This document shows, piece by piece, positions 241 through 10,299 of a stretch of DNA of 11,440 nt (position 1 is the first letter of the stretch; each line of letters opens with the position of its first letter). The translations under genes were made by a program, and so were the position numbers. The stretch comes from Planctomicrobium sp. (GTDB taxonomy: Bacteria > Planctomycetota > Planctomycetia > Planctomycetales > Planctomycetaceae), in contig JABJMI010000387.1 in NCBI GenBank assembly GCA_018659505.1, forward strand, positions 1-11,440, written 5' to 3'. The notes beneath the pieces were generated by a model. That model was not told where the DNA came from, did not search any database, and saw nothing but the letters and a program-made list of their open reading frames with translations.

Positions 241-3200
241 TTATGGGATGTAGGTTGTTGTGTCCCAATCGAAGAATAGTTCTCCGAAGAATGATGGAAT
301 GTCAATTGGTGCTGCAAAGAGGAATGTGCTTCCAATTGTGCTGAACTCGTTACTGGCTCCACTACCAACGAACCCAATCGTACTAGGTGCTGAGACACGG
401 AAGGTACTGGTTCCAACTCCGGGATACAGGAAGTTTCCACCGTCTGGTCCGGCAAGTGGAGCACTAAACGGTGCATCACGTGATGCCAGTCGTTGTGCAT
501 TTCTGCGGCGTGATGCTCCAGGACCTCCTGCTGGGAATGGTCCAGGGAAAGAGGCTGCTGCGATATTGCTAAGTCTCGATTTGAAGGTCCCTTCTGCATT
601 ATCGTACCAGGCTCCTGAGTTTGCCACGTCGATTGAATCTCCTGAGTTCCCAGTGAAGACTAGGTCAAGTCGTGCAAGTGGGTCGCTTTGATATCCTCCG
701 GTGATATTAAACATCGTCGCGTTCCAGTTTCCTGTCGTGGTACGAGGGTCAACTGTCGAAGTGAAGGACTCGAACCAGACATCAGTACCAAAGTTACCAG
801 ACATGACGTTGTCGGTGATCGTGGCAACCACTCCGCCGAATCCGTCGCTGGCATAACCACCATCAAAGAATGGGCTAGAGGTTGCATCGCTGGTACCGAT
901 TCGCATGACGAAGCCTGTGGCATCGAAGAGTGAATCTTCACCGTTGTTGCGAATCATATTGTTGTTCATATTGAAGACCATACTCGGATCGTTGAAGACA
1001 CCTCCTGTGGCATCCATACCGTGAGTCGGATCGTTCAAGTAATTGATATTACTACCAGGTGTTGGACCATCTTTGGAGTTGTACTGCGTTACTGACGCAG
1101 TATTGACGACGTAGACACCCTCTCCACCGTTCTCGTCGATAAAGTTGTTATCAACAGTGACCGTTGTTGAAGGTCCAGCTCCAGCATTCAGGATATCGAT
1201 ACCTCGACCACCGTTGTCAAAGATGATATTCGTATCGATTGTTACATCTGAGTCTGCGACATCGAGTGTCGCGAGTTCAATACCGTCTCCGGCGTTCGCT
1301 GTCACAGTGTTGTTGGTAATCATTGTCTCAAGCGAGACGCCATTTTCTGCGAGCAGTTCGATCCCGATTCCACCGTTACTGCCGATGAAGTTGGTATCGA
1401 TATCGATGGTGTTGCCCCCGATGGAAGATTCGATGTTGATACCACCAGATCCGTTATTCGTAATATCGTTGTTATGGATGTTAGCAATCCCGACTGCGGT
1501 ACTTTGGATACCCCAACCTCCGTTGCCATCAATGATGTTACCCAGGCTGTCACCATCAACATCATCACCCAGTTGACCGATCTCTAAAATTTGTGGCGTG
1601 TCAGGGAACATCGCTGGGTCAGTTCCATAGGAACCGTCGAGTAGTATCCCTGAGCCACCGTTGTTCAGGATCATGTTCTGAGTCCAGACTCCGGTCACAT
1701 AGCGTTGATCCAAGGCAGAGTTCGCTCGGTCATCGACTAGGATACCGTGGCTTCTGTTGTTCTGAATCAGGTTATTATTGATCGTTGCATCAATAATCGC
1801 ATCAGCTTCGACACGAAGATGAATACCTCGTGTGTTTTCTTCAATGAGGTTGTCTTGAATCAGGTAAGTATCAATCGTGTTCGCATTTTGAGCGAGCAAG
1901 CTGATTCCGTCTCCACCATTCCCACTTAAGGAGTTGTTCAAGATTTCAGCATTGATGAAGGCGTCACCACGGCGGTTTGTTCCAATTCCATCAGATCCAT
2001 TGCTGGTGAACATATTGTTCTGGATCAGAATCGGGTCTCCAACAGGATCCAGGAACGGATCAGTGCTGTTGCCAAACTGGCTACTCTCTGACGCCAGTAG
2101 GTTGATACCTCTTTGACCATTCATGTTGAACAAGGTATCTTCCACTAACAGGTCAACTTCAGAGGTGTTGGTAGATGGTGAATCAGGACTGGCAACAAGG
2201 CTGATACCGTGAACACCGTTATCAGAGATTGTTGTGATGCCGGTGAAATCAGGATCAATCGGACTGGTAACAGAAACACCCATCCGTGAATCGTTGAATG
2301 TCTCACCACGCAAACCGCTTTGGTTATTGTCAACAATCATTGCGTTTTGCAAGTCAATGCTTGTCAGAGATGTATCTCTGGCGATGATGTTCAAACCGCT
2401 ACCCGCACCACTGGCAGTATACATATCACGAGAACTGTTGAGATTGAATTCAGAGGTCCCCATCAAGTCTGCACGTAAGTTTGAAGACAGGTTCTGGTCA
2501 ATCGTATTGTCAGTTAAAGTTGCATTGACAATACTGTCAGTCAAGTTGAACTGGATACCACTATTTCCAGCGATCTCCATTTGTTGTTCAACTCCTGGAT
2601 CATCCAATGGAAGCGTAGAAGCCTGCAACATATAGGCTGCGAGTTTTTGTTCATTTGCGGCAATTGTTGCAGCGTCTGGTGCACTACTTTCGTAAACGCT
2701 CGATGGTGGCGGAGTTGAAGACCCTGGAACCAACGGGAAGGTTTGGTCAGCGGCATCCAAGTCGACGACATAACCCAAATCCTGGAACATCCCTGCTGTC
2801 ACTCTTGTGATTCTTCGCGGTGCTGTTCCAGTTGCCGAGAAGGTCATCAATTCATCGCCGTACAATGCGTCATCCCAGTGGGCAAAGTCTGAACCTGGAC
2901 CAACACCTGTCTGTACCGGAACTCCTGCATCGTTGAGACCAAATAAGGCGTTATGTTCAGCTGTAGCTGTTACTCCCGTGAAGATCGCATTGTTGTAATC
3001 AATCAAGCCTTTTTGATTCCAAAGGAAATCTGTGAATCCAATGACATGTCCCATTTCGTGGATAATCACATCTCTGAGTTCCAGAGGTGTCGAGCCAGCC
3101 AGGAAACCGGTGTCAAATTCCATTAACCCTAAGTAAGGGAGCATGTCGGCATCATTGCGTTGTTGTGTAAAGCCTGCTTGTCCGAGAGTTCCTCCTCCGA

Positions 3201-5955
3201 GAGCGGTACCCTCAGCCGTGATTAAAAGGTCGTCGATTAAACCAAAAGTGGGATCGACAACATCTGGCAAATCGCCAATGATCATCTCGGCCCATCGATT
3301 CGCTGCAAAGTTAAACTCAGCCTGTTGAGCCGGATTTAGCCCACCGAGGAAGACCACATTGATGTTGAAGCCACCAATGGGAGCACCGTTGCCCTGGATA
3401 AGGTTTGTATCAATGATCAGGTCGCTCAATTCAGAGTCCACCCCAATCACATTGATTCCGTTACCACCATTATTGGTAAGCTCGTTGTTGGAAATCAGGA
3501 ATTGATTATTGGTTGAATTGTCCATGACAAGAGCAAGACCATCTCGATCATTCCCATCAAAGATGTTCAGATCGAATTCCCAATCATCGAATGTCGCATC
3601 ATTTAGGTAAGCCGCAAACCCACTTTCTGTGTTATTGGTAAACATGTTTGAACCAACGACAAAGTCATTCATCGTTGAATTGTCGACAACAACAGAGAGT
3701 CCATTTCGGCTGTTTTGATTGAAGATGTTATTTGTGAAACCAGGAATCAGTTCTCCCTCAATCAGAGGATCATCCTGTAAAGGGGTGTTAATCACACCAC
3801 CATCACGTGAAGCCAGGATCGCACCGCTTCCAATGTTGTTCTCTAGTGTGTTCCGCTGAAATGTAACAAGATCAATGGTACTGCCGACTCCCTCAGAATT
3901 CGCAACAAATCCTGCAGAGACGATGTCTTGATTGTCTGAGAAGGTATTGTCCTCAACATTGGCAGTGATGACACCGCCGTTGATCGATTCCAGTAACATG
4001 CCGGTTTCGTTCAGGTTCACGAAGTTGCCCTGAATACCGGTTGCCATGGTTGTTGGATCAAACGGAAACACAGTGTCTTGAGCGGACAATCCAGTCAGAT
4101 CAACAAATCCGTCCGGATCAGTAAACACTGGGGTTCCGGGATCAGGTGCTGTGTTCAGCATCGTCGGTAGGTTATCGGCGGTGACTGTCGCTGCATCAGC
4201 GATGACTTCAAAACCAATGCCCATGTTATTGAAGGTTGAGTTACTGAAGAGTGCCAGTTCACCGTCACCCGTGTATTCAACTTGCAATCCACCAACAGTG
4301 TTGTCACGCAACACGTTTTCGCGATAATGCAATGAACCAGAGAAGTCGGTCAATTGCGTTGCGTATTCAGAGTTCTCAAGAATGTTACGATTGATGCTGA
4401 CATCGGAGACCATATCCCCTGTGATGGCATTTCCGGTGCTGACGCCCGGATCAATCAGTGTCGTCATGTGATCAATTTGAAAACCAGCGACTTCAAAACA
4501 GCTTCCGCCAGTCTCAAGTGTCACGATAGATCCATCGCTCATAAAGCCGGTACTTGAAAGTAACGGCAATGGTTGACTGGCAACAAAGCCCGGGACCGGG
4601 AAGATCTCTCCACCAGACTCTAATGAATGTGGGACACTGCTACTGAGCAATCGCTGACCACTCAGTAGATCAATACCGGTATTCAGATTGACATCAGTTT
4701 CATCTGCCCGCGGTTGGACGTAGATAATGTCGAAGAGGCTTGCATCAGCTGCGGCATATGCTTCCAAAGACACGAACGGGTCTAAGACAGTTCCGGTGCC
4801 TGTGGAGGTTGCGTCAGGATCGATGTGAGCTACGAAATATGGGGAACCAGTTTTTGGATTGATCGTCCCTTCGTTACGTGTGACAAGCTCTGAATTCACT
4901 GCAATGCGATATCGACGTTGCACTGAGTCTGTTAAAGAAGCAGCCACGGGGCGTTGTCGGAACCAGCGAACTGGTCCACTGGCTGGCATTGTCAGTTCGA
5001 CGTTGATTGAGAAGTTCGAACCGAATGTATCGTCGTTCGTGTAAACACCATTTAACCAGAAGTTGTCGCTGATCTGGGCTTGGGTACGAGCACTCACACC
5101 GACAGAGTTGTTCTTTGCAGAGTCTCCGAGGTAATAAACTCCGACGCCAAGGTCGACTCCGAAATCACCCAATCCGGGGAATGGAATTGCAACTTCAGCA
5201 TCGTATGTCGAGAAAGCTTCTTCTTCGCGGAAGAGTCTTTGCAAGGAAATTGTGTTTCCGACGAATGATGTTCCAGAGTTGCTCACAAATGACGAACTAC
5301 TGGTTTCACCGACAGGAATCGAGAAGTTCATTCTCAAATCTGTGTAGCGACCAATCGATTCAAAACTTCCACCAAGCTGATTGAAAGTCTCACCGTAGTT
5401 GGTGTCGTTATCCCACCAGAATGAAGCACCGTAAACACGGTCATCTTCTGGGATATAAACACGATGACCGACACCAATGCTGGATGACCCATTCCCTGCA
5501 TCCGAGATGTTCACCCGAGGATTGATCCACCACAGGCTACGATCGCTGTCAAAGGAGAGTGGAATAAAGGCATTGAGGTTTGTGTAACCATCAACGATCC
5601 CATAACTACTCCCGCTGTTGTTTCCAGCTCGGAAGAGAATTCGATCTTCCGGGCGGGTCGCAGCGAAGCCAACGCTATCATCCGCTGGAATCATCGCATC
5701 CGAAAACATCGGAGGAGCACCAGTCGAGAATTGGGTTTGTTGTATGTTCGGGGCGGGAACATAGGCTGATGCCGAATGGTTTGGCTGACCACCCAACTTC
5801 ACAGAACCATAGTCCTCACCGGCAACTGCTTGCATTCCCGAGGACGGTGAGTTGGCACCAGGCGAGCCTAACTCAAATGACTGCCCCCAAGTTGTCGCCG
5901 AAAGGCTCAAGCAAGCGGTGATTACTTGCAGCCAACTCTTACATGTTTTTTTCAT
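241..5955 (-). CDS. Giant exported protein: inverse-autotransporter-like barrel, beta-helix passenger, inserted M8-type metallopeptidase
   Basis: Predicted 1,904 residues, no gene name known to me. Residues 1-24 form a Sec signal peptide (Lys 2, 3 and 6, then a hydrophobic core). Ile-Thr-Ala-Cys15 could alternatively be read as a lipobox. Residues about 95-325 consist of alternating aromatic/polar strands resembling the inverse-autotransporter (intimin/invasin) barrel, with V-G-H-R-V-Y at 162-167. About 375-455 looks like a beta-helix cap. Right-handed beta-helix rungs fill about 475-860 and 1130-1785, rich in Asn ladders and N-G-G-x-G-[IV]. Between them, about 862-1070, lies a leishmanolysin-like zinc protease (H966-E967-x-x-H970, H1026, Met-turn M1037). 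The tail (1790-1904) is Pro/Gly/Ser-rich with R-R-R at 1816-1818 and ends in aromatic strands. The mature protein has only one Cys (486). It is inferred to be a surface-anchored protease. The start was chosen by its ribosome binding site, and a terminator follows the stop. Confidence 0.85.
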   Translation of the reverse strand: MKKTCKSWLQVITACLSLSATTWGQSFELGSPGANSPSSGMQAVAGEDYGSVKLGGQPNHSASAYVPAPNIQQTQFSTGAPPMFSDAMIPADDSVGFAATRPEDRILFRAGNNSGSSYGIVDGYTNLNAFIPLSFDSDRSLWWINPRVNISDAGNGSSSIGVGHRVYIPEDDRVYGASFWWDNDTNYGETFNQLGGSFESIGRYTDLRMNFSIPVGETSSSSFVSNSGTSFVGNTISLQRLFREEEAFSTYDAEVAIPFPGLGDFGVDLGVGVYYLGDSAKNNSVGVSARTQAQISDNFWLNGVYTNDDTFGSNFSINVELTMPASGPVRWFRQRPVAASLTDSVQRRYRIAVNSELVTRNEGTINPKTGSPYFVAHIDPDATSTGTGTVLDPFVSLEAYAAADASLFDIIYVQPRADETDVNLNTGIDLLSGQRLLSSSVPHSLESGGEIFPVPGFVASQPLPLLSSTGFMSDGSIVTLETGGSCFEVAGFQIDHMTTLIDPGVSTGNAITGDMVSDVSINRNILENSEYATQLTDFSGSLHYRENVLRDNTVGGLQVEYTGDGELALFSNSTFNNMGIGFEVIADAATVTADNLPTMLNTAPDPGTPVFTDPDGFVDLTGLSAQDTVFPFDPTTMATGIQGNFVNLNETGMLLESINGGVITANVEDNTFSDNQDIVSAGFVANSEGVGSTIDLVTFQRNTLENNIGSGAILASRDGGVINTPLQDDPLIEGELIPGFTNNIFNQNSRNGLSVVVDNSTMNDFVVGSNMFTNNTESGFAAYLNDATFDDWEFDLNIFDGNDRDGLALVMDNSTNNQFLISNNELTNNGGNGINVIGVDSELSDLIIDTNLIQGNGAPIGGFNINVVFLGGLNPAQQAEFNFAANRWAEMIIGDLPDVVDPTFGLIDDLLITAEGTALGGGTLGQAGFTQQRNDADMLPYLGLMEFDTGFLAGSTPLELRDVIIHEMGHVIGFTDFLWNQKGLIDYNNAIFTGVTATAEHNALFGLNDAGVPVQTGVGPGSDFAHWDDALYGDELMTFSATGTAPRRITRVTAGMFQDLGYVVDLDAADQTFPLVPGSSTPPPSSVYESSAPDAATIAANEQKLAAYMLQASTLPLDDPGVEQQMEIAGNSGIQFNLTDSIVNATLTDNTIDQNLSSNLRADLMGTSEFNLNSSRDMYTASGAGSGLNIIARDTSLTSIDLQNAMIVDNNQSGLRGETFNDSRMGVSVTSPIDPDFTGITTISDNGVHGISLVASPDSPSTNTSEVDLLVEDTLFNMNGQRGINLLASESSQFGNSTDPFLDPVGDPILIQNNMFTSNGSDGIGTNRRGDAFINAEILNNSLSGNGGDGISLLAQNANTIDTYLIQDNLIEENTRGIHLRVEADAIIDATINNNLIQNNRSHGILVDDRANSALDQRYVTGVWTQNMILNNGGSGILLDGSYGTDPAMFPDTPQILEIGQLGDDVDGDSLGNIIDGNGGWGIQSTAVGIANIHNNDITNNGSGGINIESSIGGNTIDIDTNFIGSNGGIGIELLAENGVSLETMITNNTVTANAGDGIELATLDVADSDVTIDTNIIFDNGGRGIDILNAGAGPSTTVTVDNNFIDENGGEGVYVVNTASVTQYNSKDGPTPGSNINYLNDPTHGMDATGGVFNDPSMVFNMNNNMIRNNGEDSLFDATGFVMRIGTSDATSSPFFDGGYASDGFGGVVATITDNVMSGNFGTDVWFESFTSTVDPRTTTGNWNATMFNITGGYQSDPLARLDLVFTGNSGDSIDVANSGAWYDNAEGTFKSRLSNIAAASFPGPFPAGGPGASRRRNAQRLASRDAPFSAPLAGPDGGNFLYPGVGTSTFRVSAPSTIGFVGSGASNEFSTIGSTFLFAAPIDIPSFFGELFFDWDTTTYIP
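1096..1518 (-). repeat. Diverged tandem beta-helix rungs, period about 27 residues
   Basis: Within residues 1480-1620 the motif N-G-G-x-G-[IV] or a close variant recurs with its Asn at 1501, 1527, 1554, 1581 and 1609, spacings of 26, 27, 27 and 28. Each unit reads roughly D-T-N-x-I-x-x-N-G-G-x-G-I-x-[IL]. This is the regular core of the passenger. The rungs are less regular elsewhere. At DNA level the copies have diverged strongly, so this is an old duplication array. Confidence 0.8.
2748..3372 (-). other. Region for the leishmanolysin-type (M8) metallopeptidase domain (residues about 862-1070)
   Basis: The zinc motif H-E-M-G-H-V-I-G-F (966-974; HExxH codons at 3046-3060) is followed by A-T-A-E-H-N-A-L-F-G (996-1005), a third-ligand candidate in A-H-W-D-D (His1026), and the Met-turn block Y-G-D-E-L-M-T (1032-1038). 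The end is R-I-T-R-V-T-A-G-M-F-Q-D-L-G-Y-V-V (1048-1064). This order matches bacterial leishmanolysin-like peptidases, in which the third His is well separated from HExxH. All catalytic residues are present, so activity is plausible. The family usually has ELMTG, and here Phe replaces the Gly. Confidence 0.85.
4981..5673 (-). other. Region for the inverse-autotransporter-like beta-barrel (residues about 95-325)
   Basis: The segment alternates aromatic and small polar residues in strands of about 8-12 residues, separated by Gly/Asn/Asp turns. Examples are W-W-I-N-P-R-V-N-I, G-A-S-F-W-W-D-N-D, L-R-M-N-F-S-I-P-V and V-G-V-Y-Y-L-G. This order and the S-x-G-V-G-H-R motif resemble the N-terminal membrane barrel of intimin and invasin (type Ve secretion), which anchors in the outer membrane and exports the C-terminal passenger. 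The identification is by eye. A different outer-membrane barrel or a beta-sandwich remains possible. Confidence 0.55.
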
Positions 5956-5961
5956 CGATTG

Positions 5962-5965
5962 CTCC
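5962..5965 (-). promoter_or_regulatory. Ribosome binding site that fixes the start of the giant gene
   Basis: GGAG on the minus strand lies six bases before the ATG at 5955, which opens a good signal peptide. The two further in-frame starts upstream are worse. The ATG at 5970 has AGG abutting it, and the ATG cluster at 6099-6105 has no site at all. Confidence 0.75.
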
Positions 5966-5985
5966 AGCATCCTGCCAACAGGCAA

Positions 5986-6092
5986 CCACAGCTCATCTGT
6001 GGCTGTGTGATCAGGTCGTTTCTGCGCACTCGTCAATTCCAAGCCGTCACCGGAAATTAGTCCGGTTATAACGGTTCTGCCGGCAATGGCAG
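5986..6092 (-). other. Cluster of small hairpins in the leader of the giant gene
   Basis: Three perfect short stems follow one another: CCACAG/CTGTGG (5986-5991 with 5997-6002), ACCGGA/TCCGGT (6049-6054 with 6061-6066) and CTGCC/GGCAG (6078-6082 with 6088-6092). If transcription starts upstream of them, the mRNA would have a folded leader 30-140 nt before the start codon. I compared this by eye with the c-di-GMP and cobalamin riboswitch cores and saw no match. Confidence 0.3.
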
Positions 6093-6341
6093 TTATCATC
6101 ATCAATCGGCCTGATCAACGCCTGCAGTTAAAGGAGAAATACAAAACAGGTAAAATTTAACGATTGTTCCTGTTATTCCGACCTGAAAGGTTGCCGCAGA
6201 GCACCTAGGCCCCTCACGTTCACATTCTTGAATCTCGGTAAATATTCTTTTGAAATAAATTCAATTGCTCGGGAATAAAGTCCCTCTCAACTGGCTCTAT
6301 CTCTTTGAAGGCATAGAAATTGTAAAATGCCAATAAATCAA

Positions 6342-6359
6342 TCATCTCAAATGAGATGA
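6342..6359 (+). promoter_or_regulatory. Inverted repeat just upstream of the lipoprotein ribosome binding site
   Basis: TCATCTCA (6342-6349) and TGAGATGA (6352-6359) form a perfect 8-bp inverted repeat with a 2-nt centre. It ends 6 nt before the AGGAG of the lipoprotein gene. It could be an operator read as DNA or a 5' hairpin in the mRNA. I could not place a convincing -35/-10 pair around it. Confidence 0.4.
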
Positions 6360-6376
6360 GACATTAGGAGAAAACA

Positions 6377-6646
6377 ATGAAGAATTTAACCGCTTTTCTA
6401 TCAGCAATGCTTGTTTGTACTTGGATGGTTGGCTGTGCACCTAAAGCAGATGATGCACCTGCAACAACACCAGCTGCTACTCTAGAAGAGCACTCTGAAG
6501 AAGATCACGAACACTCTGAAGAAGAAGGTACAACTGAAGAAGGTACCGAAGAAGCAACTACTGAAGAAGGCACAACCGAAGAAGCTCCAACCGAAGAAGC
6601 AGCACCAGAAGAAGCTGCTCCAGAAGCTGGAAGCACCGAAAGCTAA
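6377..6646 (+). CDS. Small Glu/Thr/Ala-rich predicted lipoprotein
   Basis: I do not recognise a named family. The product has 89 residues. Residues 1-19 form a lipoprotein signal peptide (Lys at position 2, hydrophobic core about 4-18), and the lipobox Met-Val-Gly-Cys places the lipidated Cys at 20. Ala follows at +2, with no Asp there to retain it in the inner membrane. The mature part has no predicted fold. It contains an Ala/Thr/Pro stretch, a segment with His39, His44 and His46 among Glu/Asp residues, and then seven units of E-E-(G/A)-x-(T/P) at 49-82. It is strongly acidic, probably disordered and exposed, and might bind divalent metal ions through the His/Glu patch, though this is inference. 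The ATG has AGGAG six bases upstream. It stands alone on the plus strand between two terminated minus-strand units, with its own terminator. Confidence 0.85.
   Translation: MKNLTAFLSAMLVCTWMVGCAPKADDAPATTPAATLEEHSEEDHEHSEEEGTTEEGTEEATTEEGTTEEAPTEEAAPEEAAPEAGSTES
6521..6622 (+). repeat. Seven tandem 15-nt coding units (one of 12 nt)
   Basis: Each unit begins GAAGAAG and encodes Glu-Glu followed by a Gly/Ala and Thr/Pro/Ala residues. Six units are 15 nt and the second is 12 nt, so the reading frame is kept and unit number could change without a frameshift. The units differ at third positions, so the array is not a fresh expansion. Confidence 0.8.
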
Positions 6647-6691
6647 GCCTATCAAGGCGATTGTCTCGCATCAAAGTGCGTGATTCAATTG

Positions 6692-6726
6692 AAAAGCCCG
6701 TGAGAGTTGACTCTCACGGGCTTTTT
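6692..6726. terminator. Bidirectional terminator between map and the small lipoprotein gene
   Basis: A perfect 15-bp stem (6692-6706 with 6711-6725) surrounds a TTGA loop. It has an A-run on the left and a T-run on the right, so both directions read G-C-rich stem followed by T residues. It lies 45 nt past the plus-strand lipoprotein stop and 19 nt past the minus-strand map stop, and so serves two convergent genes. Confidence 0.92.
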
Positions 6727-6745
6727 GCATTGAGTGTTTTATGCC

Positions 6746-7519
6746 TTACCGTCCAACACCCTCGGTTAATCTCTCCGCACCTTCAGTTGTCACAGCGACA
6801 GTATGCTCGAAGTGAACGCTTAATTTTCCATCTCTGGTCACAACGGTCCACTTGTCGTTCAGCACTTTGATATCTGCAGTGCCGGCATTGAGCATCGGTT
6901 CAACAGCGAGGACCAATCCTGGCTCGATGAGAAAATCATCTCTATCAAGGGATTTCTTTGTGTAATTCGGTACTTGTGGTGCCTCGTGCATTTCACGGCC
7001 AATTCCATGTCCTACGAACTTCTCAACAAGTGAATACTTATGTTTTTTAGCGACTTTCATCATCTTCTGGGCGACAACTGACCACTTCTTTTGCTTCGCT
7101 AAATTGTCGATTGCAACATTTAAAGCTTCTTCACCTGCTTTGAGAAGTCGCTGCGCTTCAGAGGAGATCTCTCCTACGGGGTAGGTCCAGGCTGCATCGC
7201 CACACCATCCGTTAATCCGACAACCGGTATCAACACTGAGGATATCACCTGATTTCAACACGTAGTCGCTGGGAATCCCATGCACGATCTGCTCGTTGAC
7301 GCTCATGCAGGTCACGGCTGGAAAAGGGGTCTCACCCGGATAGCCTTTGAAGAGTGGCTCGGCATTTTGTTTCTCAAAGAACTTCTCAACTTCCGTATCG
7401 ATGCTGAGAGTCGTCACGCCCGGCTCAACCATTCTTTTGACGATTTGATGTGCTTGAGCAACCAATTGCCCTGCCTCTTTCATTAAACCGATTTCGCGAC
7501 GAGACTTCAAAGTAATCAC
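6746..7519 (-). CDS. map: Type I methionine aminopeptidase
   Basis: This cytosolic metalloenzyme removes the initiator methionine from nascent proteins when the second residue is small. The product has 257 residues, close to other bacterial type Ia enzymes. All five metal ligands are visible: D97, D108, H171, E207 and E238. The substrate-binding H80 lies in V-H-G-I-P, and H178 in E-M-H-E-A-P. The frame is open further upstream into secY, but homology starts at Ile-Thr-Leu-Lys-Ser. I therefore chose the GTG at 7519, with AAGGA nine bases upstream, over longer versions that would overlap secY and the terminator. The enzyme has no N-terminal zinc-finger extension. It is the last gene of the minus-strand run. 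Transcription probably comes from readthrough of the secY terminator. Confidence 0.95.
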   Translation of the reverse strand: MITLKSRREIGLMKEAGQLVAQAHQIVKRMVEPGVTTLSIDTEVEKFFEKQNAEPLFKGYPGETPFPAVTCMSVNEQIVHGIPSDYVLKSGDILSVDTGCRINGWCGDAAWTYPVGEISSEAQRLLKAGEEALNVAIDNLAKQKKWSVVAQKMMKVAKKHKYSLVEKFVGHGIGREMHEAPQVPNYTKKSLDRDDFLIEPGLVLAVEPMLNAGTADIKVLNDKWTVVTRDGKLSVHFEHTVAVTTEGAERLTEGVGR

Positions 7520-7546
7520 AGCACTCAATCCTTCTGGGAATCCAAT

Positions 7547-7573
7547 AAAAAAACCCGGCGTAAAGCCGGGTTT
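7547..7573 (-). terminator. Intrinsic terminator between secY and map
   Basis: On the minus strand a perfect 9-bp stem (AAACCCGGC with GCCGGGTTT, 5-nt loop) runs straight into seven consecutive T residues (7553-7547). The stem contains six G-C pairs. It starts 23 nt after the secY stop. The T-run is only on the minus-strand side, so it acts on the secY transcript. Only 27 nt remain between the T-run and the map start codon. Confidence 0.85.
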
Positions 7574-7595
7574 AAGTCTGCTTAAGTGCAATCTG

Positions 7596-8954
7596 TTAAA
7601 CGTCTTCTGACTCAAGCATGCCTGGCTTGTTACGCATGACAAGATGGCTATCAATCTTCTGGACAAGGTCCAACGCGACCGAGACCACAATCAATAGTCC
7701 TGTCCCCCCGTAGAAACTGGCAACCATAAAGGAAATGTCCATTCCCCTCGCCACCAGTGTCGGGATAATTGCGATCAATGCCAAAAAGCCTGCTCCAACG
7801 TATGTAATGCGAGTCATCACTTGGTCGAGGTATTTCTCGGTATGTGTTCCAGGACGATAGCCCGGCACGAAACTTCCGTAATCCTTCAAGTTCTCTGCCA
7901 TATCCTTTGGATTAAAGGTAATACTCGTCCAGAAGTAACAGAAGAAGAAGATCAAGCCGACATAGACAAGATTGTAGATCAATCCACGTCCACCACCGAA
8001 TGTACTATCTGCTAATGAGAGCATCGAGCTTTCGGGAAACGATTTACTCAGGTAACTGAATATGAACATTGGGAACATCAACAGGCTTGATGCAAAGATG
8101 ATCGGCATCACGCCAGCTTGATTCACTCGCAATGGTAGAGATTGCTTTTGTCCACCAAGGACTCGACGACCACGAACGTGCTTAGCACTCTGAATTGGAA
8201 TACGACGTGTCGCCTGCGTGATCGCAATAACTCCTAGGACAACAGCCACGAAGATCACTCCTAGTGGAAGTAACTTGTCGATCCCAGCTGCGGTTCCTAA
8301 GCCAACTCCGTAACGGAAAGCAGGACCGATCAACTCCATCCCTGCACTCGGCATTTGAGCCAAGATACCTGCCATGATCAACAGGCTGATTCCGTTTCCG
8401 ATGCCGTATTCGTCGATTTGTTCACCAATCCACATTAACAGCAGTGTTCCTGCCGTCATTGTGATCGTCGCTACAAAGGTGTAGAAGAAGCCGCTGTATT
8501 CCTCGAGAATCAGCCCCTGTCCCATACCTCCGCCGGTCAACATTCGTATCCAGAAGAAACTTTGCCCCAAGCAGATGACCACCGTGGCATAGCGAGTAAA
8601 TTCATTGATCTTTTTACGTCCAGACTCGCCTTCTTTTTGCAACGCTTCCAAAGGGGGATAAACCTGCCCGAGTAGCTGAAAGATAATCGAGGCAGAGATA
8701 TATGGCATGATCCCCAAACCGAAGATACTAGCATTCCCCAGCGATGATGCTGACAACAGAGCAACCGCCTGAAGCATTTGCCCCATACCTTGCTGATCAG
8801 TCATTTTCTTGAACTGTTCAGCGAACGTCGCCTGATCAATGAATGGCAATGGGATTGAGAAACCCATGCGATAGACAGCAAGCAAAACGAGAGTAATCAC
8901 GACTTTTTGTCGCAATTCTGGAATGGTAAAAACGGTTCGCAAGCGAGACAGCAT
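7596..8954 (-). CDS. secY: Protein translocase subunit SecY
   Basis: SecY is the central channel of the SecYEG translocon in the cytoplasmic membrane. It passes unfolded proteins outward with SecA and inserts membrane proteins. The product has 452 residues with ten hydrophobic segments, the family norm. Landmarks are TM1 (about 18-40, ending I-P-L-P-F-I-D), the plug/TM2 region I-F-G-L-G-I-M-P-Y-I-S-A-S at 77-89, and W-I-G-E-Q-I-D-E-Y-G-I-G-N-G-I-S-L at 175-191. The cytosolic R-R-I-P-I-Q lies at 250-255, V-N-Q-A-G-V-M-P-I-I-F at 277-287, and the SecA/ribosome-contacting loop F-V-P-G-Y-R-P-G at 362-369. The ATG at 8954 has AAGGAAG upstream. The gene lies distal to rplO, and adk, often found next, is absent. 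The strong terminator that follows suggests secY is the main end of the ribosomal operon transcript. Confidence 0.98.
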   Translation of the reverse strand: MLSRLRTVFTIPELRQKVVITLVLLAVYRMGFSIPLPFIDQATFAEQFKKMTDQQGMGQMLQAVALLSASSLGNASIFGLGIMPYISASIIFQLLGQVYPPLEALQKEGESGRKKINEFTRYATVVICLGQSFFWIRMLTGGGMGQGLILEEYSGFFYTFVATITMTAGTLLLMWIGEQIDEYGIGNGISLLIMAGILAQMPSAGMELIGPAFRYGVGLGTAAGIDKLLPLGVIFVAVVLGVIAITQATRRIPIQSAKHVRGRRVLGGQKQSLPLRVNQAGVMPIIFASSLLMFPMFIFSYLSKSFPESSMLSLADSTFGGGRGLIYNLVYVGLIFFFCYFWTSITFNPKDMAENLKDYGSFVPGYRPGTHTEKYLDQVMTRITYVGAGFLALIAIIPTLVARGMDISFMVASFYGGTGLLIVVSVALDLVQKIDSHLVMRNKPGMLESEDV

Positions 8955-8983
8955 TAAACAACTTCCTTATCGTAGACCGCCAT
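8954..8983 (-). CDS. Possible nine-codon leader peptide overlapping the secY start
   Basis: An ATG at 8983 opens a frame Met-Ala-Val-Tyr-Asp-Lys-Glu-Val-Val that stops at TAA (8956-8954). The last A of this stop is the A of the secY ATG, a TAATG overlap of the kind used for translational coupling. Upstream is AGAGG about seven bases before the ATG. The secY start also has its own AAGGAAG site, which lies inside the mini-ORF. A nine-codon frame can arise by chance, so this is a candidate only. Confidence 0.2.
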   Translation of the reverse strand: MAVYDKEVV

Positions 8984-9273
8984 TCCTTAACCTCTAACAG
9001 ATAATGATTATGGGATAACGAGAATGTCTCTCAGAGATGATCACTCACACTAATTGAATGAGTCGAAATAGAACCCATATCATTAGCATAATTATGTAAT
9101 GGGTAACGAATTTAGCAGATATCGTGCAAGTCCAAACCTATGGAAACAAGCTTTCTTGAAAGAAAAACAAGAAAACTATCAAGTTGGGACTAAAAGAGAT
9201 TCAAGAATGAAACGACAAGGTCTTCGAGAAATCGATTAAGCGAATCCTAAGAAATGAAATTCAACTTAAACAA
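8955..9273 (-). other. 319-nt rplO-secY spacer, AT-rich, no protein gene seen
   Basis: This spacer is about four times longer than the others in the operon. I find no ORF in it beyond short peptides. The minus strand has a T-rich run near 9160-9176, a 32-nt imperfect palindrome (9073-9104), a small CTTTC-TT-GAAAG repeat near 9151-9162, and a nine-codon ORF touching secY. A poor promoter candidate, TTTGGA with TAAATT 16 nt downstream, lies near 9109-9138. The length suggests a separate control region for secY (a secondary promoter or a structured leader), but no element is recognised with confidence. Confidence 0.5.
9073..9104. repeat. 32-nt imperfect palindrome in the secY leader
   Basis: The outer arms ACCCAT (9073-9078) and ATGGGT (9099-9104) are perfect inverted repeats. 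Inside is the perfect 10-bp palindrome CATAATTATG (9087-9096). An alternative pairing, CATTA (9081-9085) with TAATG (9097-9101), extends that palindrome with one bulged G. The AT-rich core and lack of a U-tract argue against a terminator. A protein-binding site or an RNA switch between two pairings is possible but unproven. Confidence 0.45.
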
Positions 9274-9723
9274 CTACGCCAAGGTTTCAGCTTTTCCACC
9301 AACTGCTTCAATCTTTTCTTGAGCAGACTTCGAAAAACGGTGAGCTTTGACTGTCAAGGCAACAGTCAGTTCTCCATCACCAAGAATCTTAAGGAAGTCG
9401 TAAGAACCTTTAGCGAGTCCAATTCTCTTTAGACTCTCGGGAGTGACTTCGGTTCCAGCTTCAAAATGCTTTTGAAGAGTGCCGATGTTGACAGCGATGA
9501 CTTTCTTAGCGAAAGCGTTGTTGTTAAACCCACGTTTCGCGACAAGGCGAAACAATGGCATCTGTCCACCAGCGAAACCAAGTCGCTTGGAATGACCACT
9601 GCGACTCCCTTGTCCCTTGTGACCACGACCGCTCGTCTTGCCGTGTCCAGAACCTGGACCTCGACCGACACGTTTGCGATTTTTGTTCTTTGTAATACCG
9701 GTATGGACGTCGGAGATAATCAT
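9274..9723 (-). CDS. rplO: 50S ribosomal protein L15
   Basis: This is L15, a late-assembling 23S rRNA-binding protein whose long N-terminal tail threads into the large subunit. With the start chosen here it has 149 residues. The Gly/Arg/Lys-rich tail is obvious ([19 protein letters not shown] at about residues 20-38). The C-terminal L15 block [10 protein letters not shown] runs from about 108, followed by an A-H-R-F-S-K-S-A-Q motif. The ATG at 9723 puts the protein at the usual family N-terminus (Met-Ile-Ile-Ser-Asp-Val-His), with a weak GTGGA upstream. An in-frame ATG at 9744 would add seven residues that look unlike L15 and has no ribosome binding site. The gene ends in TAG, and a 319-nt gap follows before secY. 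Confidence 0.96.
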
Positions 9724-9735
9724 GACTGGAAATCC

Positions 9736-9758
9736 ACAGGCCATTCAAATCAGGCCGT
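9736..9758 (-). other. Short hairpin at the rplO initiation region
   Basis: ACAGGCC (9736-9742) pairs with GGCCGT (9753-9758) with one bulged base and a 10-nt loop. It is centred 24 nt upstream of the preferred rplO start. The alternative upstream ATG (9744) would lie in the loop, and neither start has a strong Shine-Dalgarno sequence. A structural influence on initiation is possible but inferred. Confidence 0.3.
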
Positions 9759-9804
9759 CATCAGTTAATTGAGTATTAGAAACTAGCTTAAATTGAAAAC
9801 GAGT

Positions 9805-10299
9805 TTAGATTTCAACTCCGCGTAAACGAGCAACATCTTCACGGGTACGAAGTTTTGACAAAGCATCAAAAGTTGCTTTAACAAGATTGACAGGATTTGT
9901 TGAACCACGGCTCTTTGTCAGGATGTCTTTAACACCAAATAATTCAACGACTGCACGTACTGTTTCTCCGGCAATAATACCTGTACCGGCCGCAGCTGGC
10001 ATCAGCAATACTTTAGAGGCACCAAATCGTCCTTCAACACGATGAGGAATGGTTGTTCCATCGAGTGAAAAATCTTGCAAAGATCGGTTTGCTTGTTTAG
10101 TCGCTTTTTCTACAGAAGTAGGAACTTCTGTTCCTTTTCCATATCCGTAACCGACGCGTCCCTTCTCATCTCCGACGACAACCAGAGCTGCAAAGCTAAA
10201 ACGACGTCCACCTTTGACAACACAAGCACATCGACGAATCTGTACGACGCGTTCAGGAATGTTAGATCCTTGACCTTGTCCGCTATTTTGCTGAGCCAC
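9805..10299 (-). CDS. rpsE: 30S ribosomal protein S5
   Basis: This is S5, which sits at the mRNA entry side of the 30S subunit and contributes to decoding fidelity. The 164-residue product matches the family length. The N-terminal S5 domain (about residues 15-80) holds the double-stranded-RNA-binding signature, with V-V-K-G-G-R-R-F-S-F at 27-36 and G-R-V-G-Y-G-Y-G-K at 47-55. The C-terminal domain has G-T-G-I-I-A-G at 105-111 and R-G-S-T-N-P at 131-136. The start is a GTG at 10299 with AGGAG eight bases upstream, which places the Gln/Gly-rich N-terminus in the protein. It is followed directly by rplO with no rpmD between them, although L30 often occupies that place in other bacteria. Confidence 0.98.
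   Translation of the reverse strand: MAQQNSGQGQGSNIPERVVQIRRCACVVKGGRRFSFAALVVVGDEKGRVGYGYGKGTEVPTSVEKATKQANRSLQDFSLDGTTIPHRVEGRFGASKVLLMPAAAGTGIIAGETVRAVVELFGVKDILTKSRGSTNPVNLVKATFDALSKLRTREDVARLRGVEI

Follow-up and report, generated by a model that had tools for sequence, protein, structure and literature searches.

Two described systems are closest to the protein analysed here. In the inverse autotransporters, or type Ve (intimin and invasin; PF11924), a 12-stranded N-terminal barrel is followed by a C-terminal passenger whose domains are typically Ig-like or lectin-like, as stated in the available part of a review (PMC6555100), and the intimin passenger is exported from N- to C-terminus via a hairpin, driven by folding outside, according to the available parts of the same review and of a second source (PMC13078405). 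For the type Va autotransporters, the accessible part of another review (PMC9289746) distinguishes three kinds of passenger, namely a helix alone, a helix with a catalytic domain at its N-terminus, and a catalytic domain with no helix, and it mentions loops and smaller subdomains that can project from the helix. Here we analysed 11,440 nucleotides from a planctomycete, Planctomicrobium sp. (contig JABJMI010000387.1; this whole stretch is called the window hereafter), and in particular the open frame P0001 (241..6105 on the minus strand, 1954 codons). Our results suggest that P0001 is probably an inverse (type Ve) autotransporter whose beta-helix passenger bears a predicted M8 metalloprotease on its side and tethers it to the cell surface.

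The likeness of P0001 to type Ve lies in the N-terminal barrel and the C-terminal passenger, while the difference lies in the passenger itself, which is a beta-helix plus an enzyme and not Ig-like or lectin-like. With the type Va serine-protease autotransporters (SPATEs, SPATE-like and subtilisin-like proteins) it shares a protease on a beta-helix passenger, but the SPATE-like proteins have a C-terminal barrel and a serine protease at the helix N-terminus, whereas P0001 has an N-terminal barrel and an M8 zinc protease in the middle of the stalk; a type Va SPATE-like identity is ruled out by the N-terminal barrel and the internal M8 protease. As modelled, P0001 follows type Ve in its domain order, resembles type Va in its passenger, and carries the enzyme in mid-stalk; it would act as a stalk-mounted autotransporter protease but is not a SPATE. 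Its nearest named protein is P0007 of Thalassoglobus polymorphus, and the database names of relatives cover the parts separately, as 'right-handed parallel beta-helix repeat-containing protein' or as 'leishmanolysin-related zinc metalloendopeptidase'; an NCBIfam search of the protein gave no match.

The M8 protease and its place in the beta-helix

P0001 carries a leishmanolysin-type (M8) zinc protease domain that looks intact (residues 913-1120, window 2746..3369, minus strand, as are all features of P0001 below). Residues are numbered here from the beginning of the open frame at window 6105; a sequence-only reading of the same stretch had counted from Met51 (window 5955), and its numbers plus 50 give ours. 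The ligands that it proposed, H966, E967, H970, H1026 and M1037, are indeed present as H1016, E1017, H1020, H1076 and M1087. In the Pfam search for Peptidase_M8 that the same reading had suggested, the cut-out domain scores above the cut-off of 21 (23.3 and 23.8 bits, E 3.2e-5 and 2.2e-5), and the full-length protein below it (18.0 bits, E 0.0012). Of the 19 matches from a domain search, 18 went into our domain alignment A3 (L018 was dropped); all 18 domains have an M8 match at E <= 0.01, and 13 of the 18 match Matrixin as well. With the A3 profile, leishmanolysin 1lml is found at E 6.6e-12, its HExxH, third His and ELM Met-turn lining up with those of the domains, and a single-sequence phmmer search against 1lml keeps the same register at E 0.06. 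Profile A2, whose rows after the first are full-length proteins, returned from the PDB leishmanolysin plus weak unrelated matches alone. Moreover, in a Foldseek search with the structural model 1lml came first (E 6.9e-7, probability 1.00, template modelling (TM) score to target 0.36) and was the sole match at E <= 0.001. Matrixins were weaker both in Foldseek and in the profile search, which is expected because the domain is a metzincin.

The M8 signature aligned to 1lml is complete, with the zinc motif HEMGHVIG (H1016, E1017, H1020 and G1023; 3037..3060), the third zinc ligand H1076 (2878..2880), which pairs with a leishmanolysin His, and the Met-turn M1087 (2845..2847), which pairs with the leishmanolysin ELM. 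In the AlphaFold model HExxH lies on a helix (model 228-243) within a globular domain and outside any rung; its burial in a rung, envisaged beforehand as the contrary outcome, is not the case. Thus P0001 and leishmanolysin (M8, PF01457, 1lml) have in common HExxHxxG, a distant third His, the Met-turn and the metzincin fold, but the domain of P0001 has about 208 residues against the 478 of the 1lml chain, contains no cysteine, matches the 529-position Pfam model at positions 192-332 only, and is held in a bacterial stalk.

The full H, E, H, G, H, M set was found in all 29 barrel-linked rows, that is, M8 proteins with the barrel described below, and in 135 of 141 other M8 rows, the six exceptions all being non-barrel. 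In the 29 rows some genes are present more than once (P0007 and L037; L062 and L147); P0002, the window's own protein, was excluded from the conservation, tree and domain-position counts, and M8 matches of 185 residues or fewer from the conservation, M8-tree, first barrel-tree and domain-position counts. Nine orthologues match the window protein in M8 at 86, 86, 81, 82, 78, 75, 75, 59 and 42% identity, and G004, a genome from the window's genus, has an orthologue at 78% domain identity. In comparison with T. polymorphus, the nonsynonymous divergence (dN) is lowest in M8 (0.168) of seven segments, with synonymous sites near saturation. It might be argued that the M8 domain serves for binding and not for catalysis, and a non-barrel M8 relative, L053, shows that motif loss is possible in such domains; against this stand the low dN and the six positions intact in 29 of 29 rows, including the divergent P0049, and we hold a non-catalytic role to be very unlikely. 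L053 itself (4442-8602, plus strand, genome G023, no barrel detected) has the degenerate zinc motif REIGQALG, and its M8 domain is likely inactive.

The sequence-only reading had placed the protease in mid-helix with rungs on both sides. The AlphaFold model bears this out, and Pfam gives beta-helix matches (PF13229 E 2.5e-27, NosD E 2.4e-9). The N-terminal arm (residues 429-904, 3394..4821) has a rung spacing of 27 residues in its modelled part, from residue 780, with strands before the insert at model 24, 51, 78 and 105, and would comprise about 18 rungs provided that all have 27 residues. The C-terminal arm (residues 1182-1785, 751..2562) is supported by the model for 1182-1330 and by Pfam Beta_helix, with its best stretch at 1522-1677. 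In the model the protease sits between two rungs of this regular 27-residue helix, which then resumes with the rung phase maintained across the insert. The two arms together superpose on one solenoid (AlgE4, 242 residues, 2.1 A), and the continuity of the arms, for which a structure prediction had been proposed, is found in the model.

As regards the boundaries of the insertion, the earlier claim stood in part: the domain is an insert between rungs as proposed, but the Pro-rich linker does not lead straight back into the helix. In fact the insert spans about residues 905 to 1181 (window 2563-3393). Part of it is a low-confidence return linker (residues 1121-1181, 2563..2745) that is Pro-rich, continues into two alpha-helices (model 366-385 and 391-398) and lies partly below 50 in predicted local distance difference test (pLDDT); the PPP of this linker is missing in the orthologue P0007. 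Such a linker, together with a predicted TM score (pTM) of 0.59, would fit a protein in which the protease interrupts the solenoid and serves as a globular hinge between two separate beta-helix arms. We consider this improbable, since more than 240 residues of both arms fit single solenoids (2pyg_B, 8ja4) at 2.1-2.7 A, these superpositions being a second look at Foldseek matches only, and since the rung phase is preserved across the insert.

Among close M8-less barrels, no insert-free orthologue with identical flanks was found. The alignments of P0048 (barrel region 68% identical) and of L097 and L098 (54%) with the window protein reach as far as about residue 815, and P0048 and L097 align again past about 1313 and 1362; an empty site is not demonstrable letter for letter because these relatives do not align around the insertion site. 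Another such barrel, L099 (G002, 65% in the barrel), ends at a contig edge after 716 residues, with no M8 match in its genome. P0048 has in common with P0001 both the barrel and the N-terminal extension ahead of the signal peptide, differs in its middle rungs, and has no detected M8.

The N-terminal barrel

The barrel was absent from the account of the sequence-only reading and is added by the present analysis. The likely start of P0001 is an ATG at 5970 (MLEQSMK) or at 5955 (MKK), followed by a Sec-type signal peptide, MKKTCKSWLQVITACLSLSATTWGQ (5881..5955), which was recognised by eye and forms a helix at 2-22 of the AlphaFold model; the segment MLEQSMKDTCKSW of P0001 recurs in L097, P0048 and P0049. 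The model of residues 51-470 (mean pLDDT 71) begins with the signal-peptide helix and passes through a stretch of low confidence to a beta-barrel. The barrel (residues 145-380, 4966..5673) has as its top PDB matches in Foldseek invasin 4e1t (E 2.5e-11) and intimin 4e1s (E 5.5e-11), both with TM to target of 0.71-0.72, and third 5g26 (E 6.8e-11, TM 0.71-0.72), whose title names no protein. Moreover, PF11924 (IAT_beta) is above the cut-off in five relatives, P0015, P0016, P0019, L045 and L051, each of which has barrel and M8 in one chain, and the domain order of signal peptide, barrel and passenger is that of type Ve. By fold match and by its relatives, and not by the PF11924 profile, the N-terminus looks like a type Ve-like barrel in the model, which makes surface display plausible.

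Several findings weigh against our reading of P0001. PF11924 gave nothing at E <= 1 in a Pfam search of P0001, phmmer of its N-terminus against the PDB gave no match, and DSSP assigns 14 strand segments to the barrel model of mean pLDDT 71, while type Ve barrels are 12-stranded. The pTM is 0.59 in both models, passenger and barrel, and the orientation of the domains is uncertain because of it; the two-sided helix around M8 comes from the model of the window protein alone. In wider comparison, four barrel-linked M8 proteins fall short in Pfam Beta_helix, P0027 and L038 with sub-threshold matches and P0011 and L227 with none; L053 has lost the zinc motif; and P0049 has only 42% identity in M8 and 21% in the linker, with 54-64% in the other segments and the catalytic residues kept, so that its protease appears to have diverged or been replaced on an otherwise conserved stalk.

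The missing PF11924 match and the 14 modelled strand segments would also suit an unrelated porin-like barrel, with a beta-helix that is not exported. Still less probability can be given to this than to a non-catalytic M8 domain, however, as invasin and intimin barrels are the two top PDB matches and OmpG, the next barrel after 5g26 (E 8.9e-6 for OmpG), is five orders of magnitude weaker, and as PF11924 is above the cut-off in the five relatives named above.

Distribution among planctomycetes and evolutionary changes

Of 297 genomes sampled from the class, 122 have barrel-type matches; the window genome has four such matches and its relatives up to six, with at most six candidates scored per genome. 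M8 occurs in 57 of the 297 at E <= 1e-15, and at least 10 (G000, G001, G003, G004, G019, G043, G052, G063, G092 and G309) combine barrel and M8 in a single frame, a lower bound, M8 matches in short frames having been only partly fetched. A scan of named-genome contigs met at least 77 loci with M8 relatives, and the M8 frame was recovered in 75; among the named-genome matches listed, a barrel is present in one of these 75, L147 of a Planctomycetaceae metagenome-assembled genome. A search for other proteins that pair M8 with beta-helix repeats, as proposed earlier, was fruitful: Beta_helix is above the cut-off in 11 of the 15 barrel-linked M8 proteins scanned, below it in two, and without match in two.

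The view of the sequence-only reading that M8 domains of bacteria tend to be close to a terminus agrees with our counts as well. Of 121 non-barrel proteins treated as complete (all P rows among them), 77 have no more than 100 residues after M8, the share within the named-genome loci listed being 55 of 61, against at least 803 in all 29 barrel-linked rows; the protease of non-barrel M8 proteins at large is commonly near the C-terminus. The five other planctomycete M8 proteins scanned carry RTX repeats (L039, L041 and L043 with Calx-beta, L044 without it) or PPC domains (L040), so that one type of protease occurs in frames of several kinds. Such bacterial proteins share the protease subfamily with P0001, at 37-48% identity over the matched part, but have other partner domains and no barrel found.

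On a tree of 112 barrels, 27 of them with M8, the presence of M8 changes at least eight times, seven of these changes being forced by well-supported branches, and the removal of five cut-off, partial or short frames (under 1400 residues), which leaves 108 barrels, 27 with M8 and 81 without, again gives eight changes, seven forced. A tree of 163 M8 rows, with 28 barrel-linked labels, gives eight changes with one forced; only in this tree was P0012, whose sequence begins inside the post-barrel segment, labelled barrel-linked by hand. All three trees are quick searches in which gain and loss are not separable, and their rows were chosen through barrel, helix and M8 searches, so that proportions are not frequencies. 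A repeated gain or loss of M8 among barrels fits the barrel trees, whose eight changes, seven of them forced, speak against a single origin of the protease insert.

Some further frames were met in this survey. L045 (3446-12124, plus strand) in G003, of the window's genus, is a barrel and beta-helix protein of 2893 residues with NIDO (PF06119) at 1414-1596 and M8 at 1760-1966, which indicates that a passenger of such kind can hold more than one domain type. In L239 of G188 a barrel frame of 778 residues (10195-12528, minus strand) is followed about 110 bases on by an M8 frame of 714 residues (7942-10083, minus strand), and the two may be either neighbouring genes or a split gene. L215, L218-L223, L225, L226 and L229 have frames of about 4900-5500 residues as fetched, with an interior M8 and no barrel detected.

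The abundance of barrel-type genes, four in the window genome and up to six in relatives, would provide plentiful local targets if the protease were mainly a sheddase or maturase, cutting its own stalk or neighbouring passengers to release or remodel surface adhesins and not attacking prey outside. In all nine orthologues the linker that follows M8 is 9 to 21 points lower in identity than the domain, which would also suit such a role. Against it, no cleavage site was identified and both arms are retained in all nine aligned orthologues, and we regard a mainly sheddase role as possible though rather unlikely.

As for the remaining parts of the window, the C-terminal region of P0001 (residues 1786-1954, 244..750) has neither an assigned fold nor a best Pfam stretch and is 61-94% identical in the nine orthologues. 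The frame list gives a frame of 89 residues at 6377-6646 on the plus strand, divergent from the stalk gene, which resembles a small lipoprotein with Glu/Thr-rich repeats. Other neighbours we take to be secY, map and rpsE; these were not met in loci L037-L066 and L097-L136, which is weak evidence, as the loci extend only a few kb past the gene and had no positive control.

A probable stalk-mounted protease and its meaning

The fold types, the insertion between rungs, the conserved catalytic residues and the recurrence of the architecture are computed results, and from them we infer a translocation route, display, activity and substrates, the route by applying the published export of intimin to P0001. 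After Sec export, the N-terminal barrel would insert in the outer membrane and the C-terminal passenger would be passed outwards, folding from its N-terminus outside, rung by rung, as a right-handed beta-helix. After about 18 rungs the chain would exit the solenoid between two rungs, fold the 208-residue M8 zinc protease on emergence and return via the helical linker, and the solenoid would continue in register for about 22 more rungs. A beta-helix rises 4.8 A per rung, and with 27 residues per rung the outcome would be a rigid, membrane-tethered stalk with the metalloprotease on its flank, about 9 nm (some 18 rungs) from the barrel. The predicted substrates are most likely proteins of the cell's own surface, of its neighbours, or of particles on which it sits. 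What the sequence-only reading observed is confirmed, and its interpretation is supported by the models, with catalysis, display and substrate still at the level of prediction.

In the available parts of the two reviews (PMC6555100, PMC9289746) and of four further papers (PMC8286594, PMC10947273, PMC7549365, PMC13078405), and in related titles and beginnings of abstracts, a mid-stalk M8 protease on a type Ve stalk is not described. P0001 would join type Ve translocation and beta-helix-mounted proteases, which those parts of the reviews keep apart. If this holds, proteases mounted on a beta-helix occur with barrels of either polarity, and N- to C-terminal export is open to a solenoid even where a folded enzyme emerges midway; such a protein may also be a natural template for enzyme display on the flank of a stiff surface stalk. 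More tentatively, the planctomycetes may have a distinct type Ve branch in which the beta-helix scaffold repeatedly gains or loses whole enzyme and binding domains between its rungs (M8, and once also a nidogen-like domain), a modular display where the position on the stalk would set the working distance of the protease. If true, our reading of P0001 would provide a candidate function for members of a barrel family present in 122 of the 297 genomes of the class.
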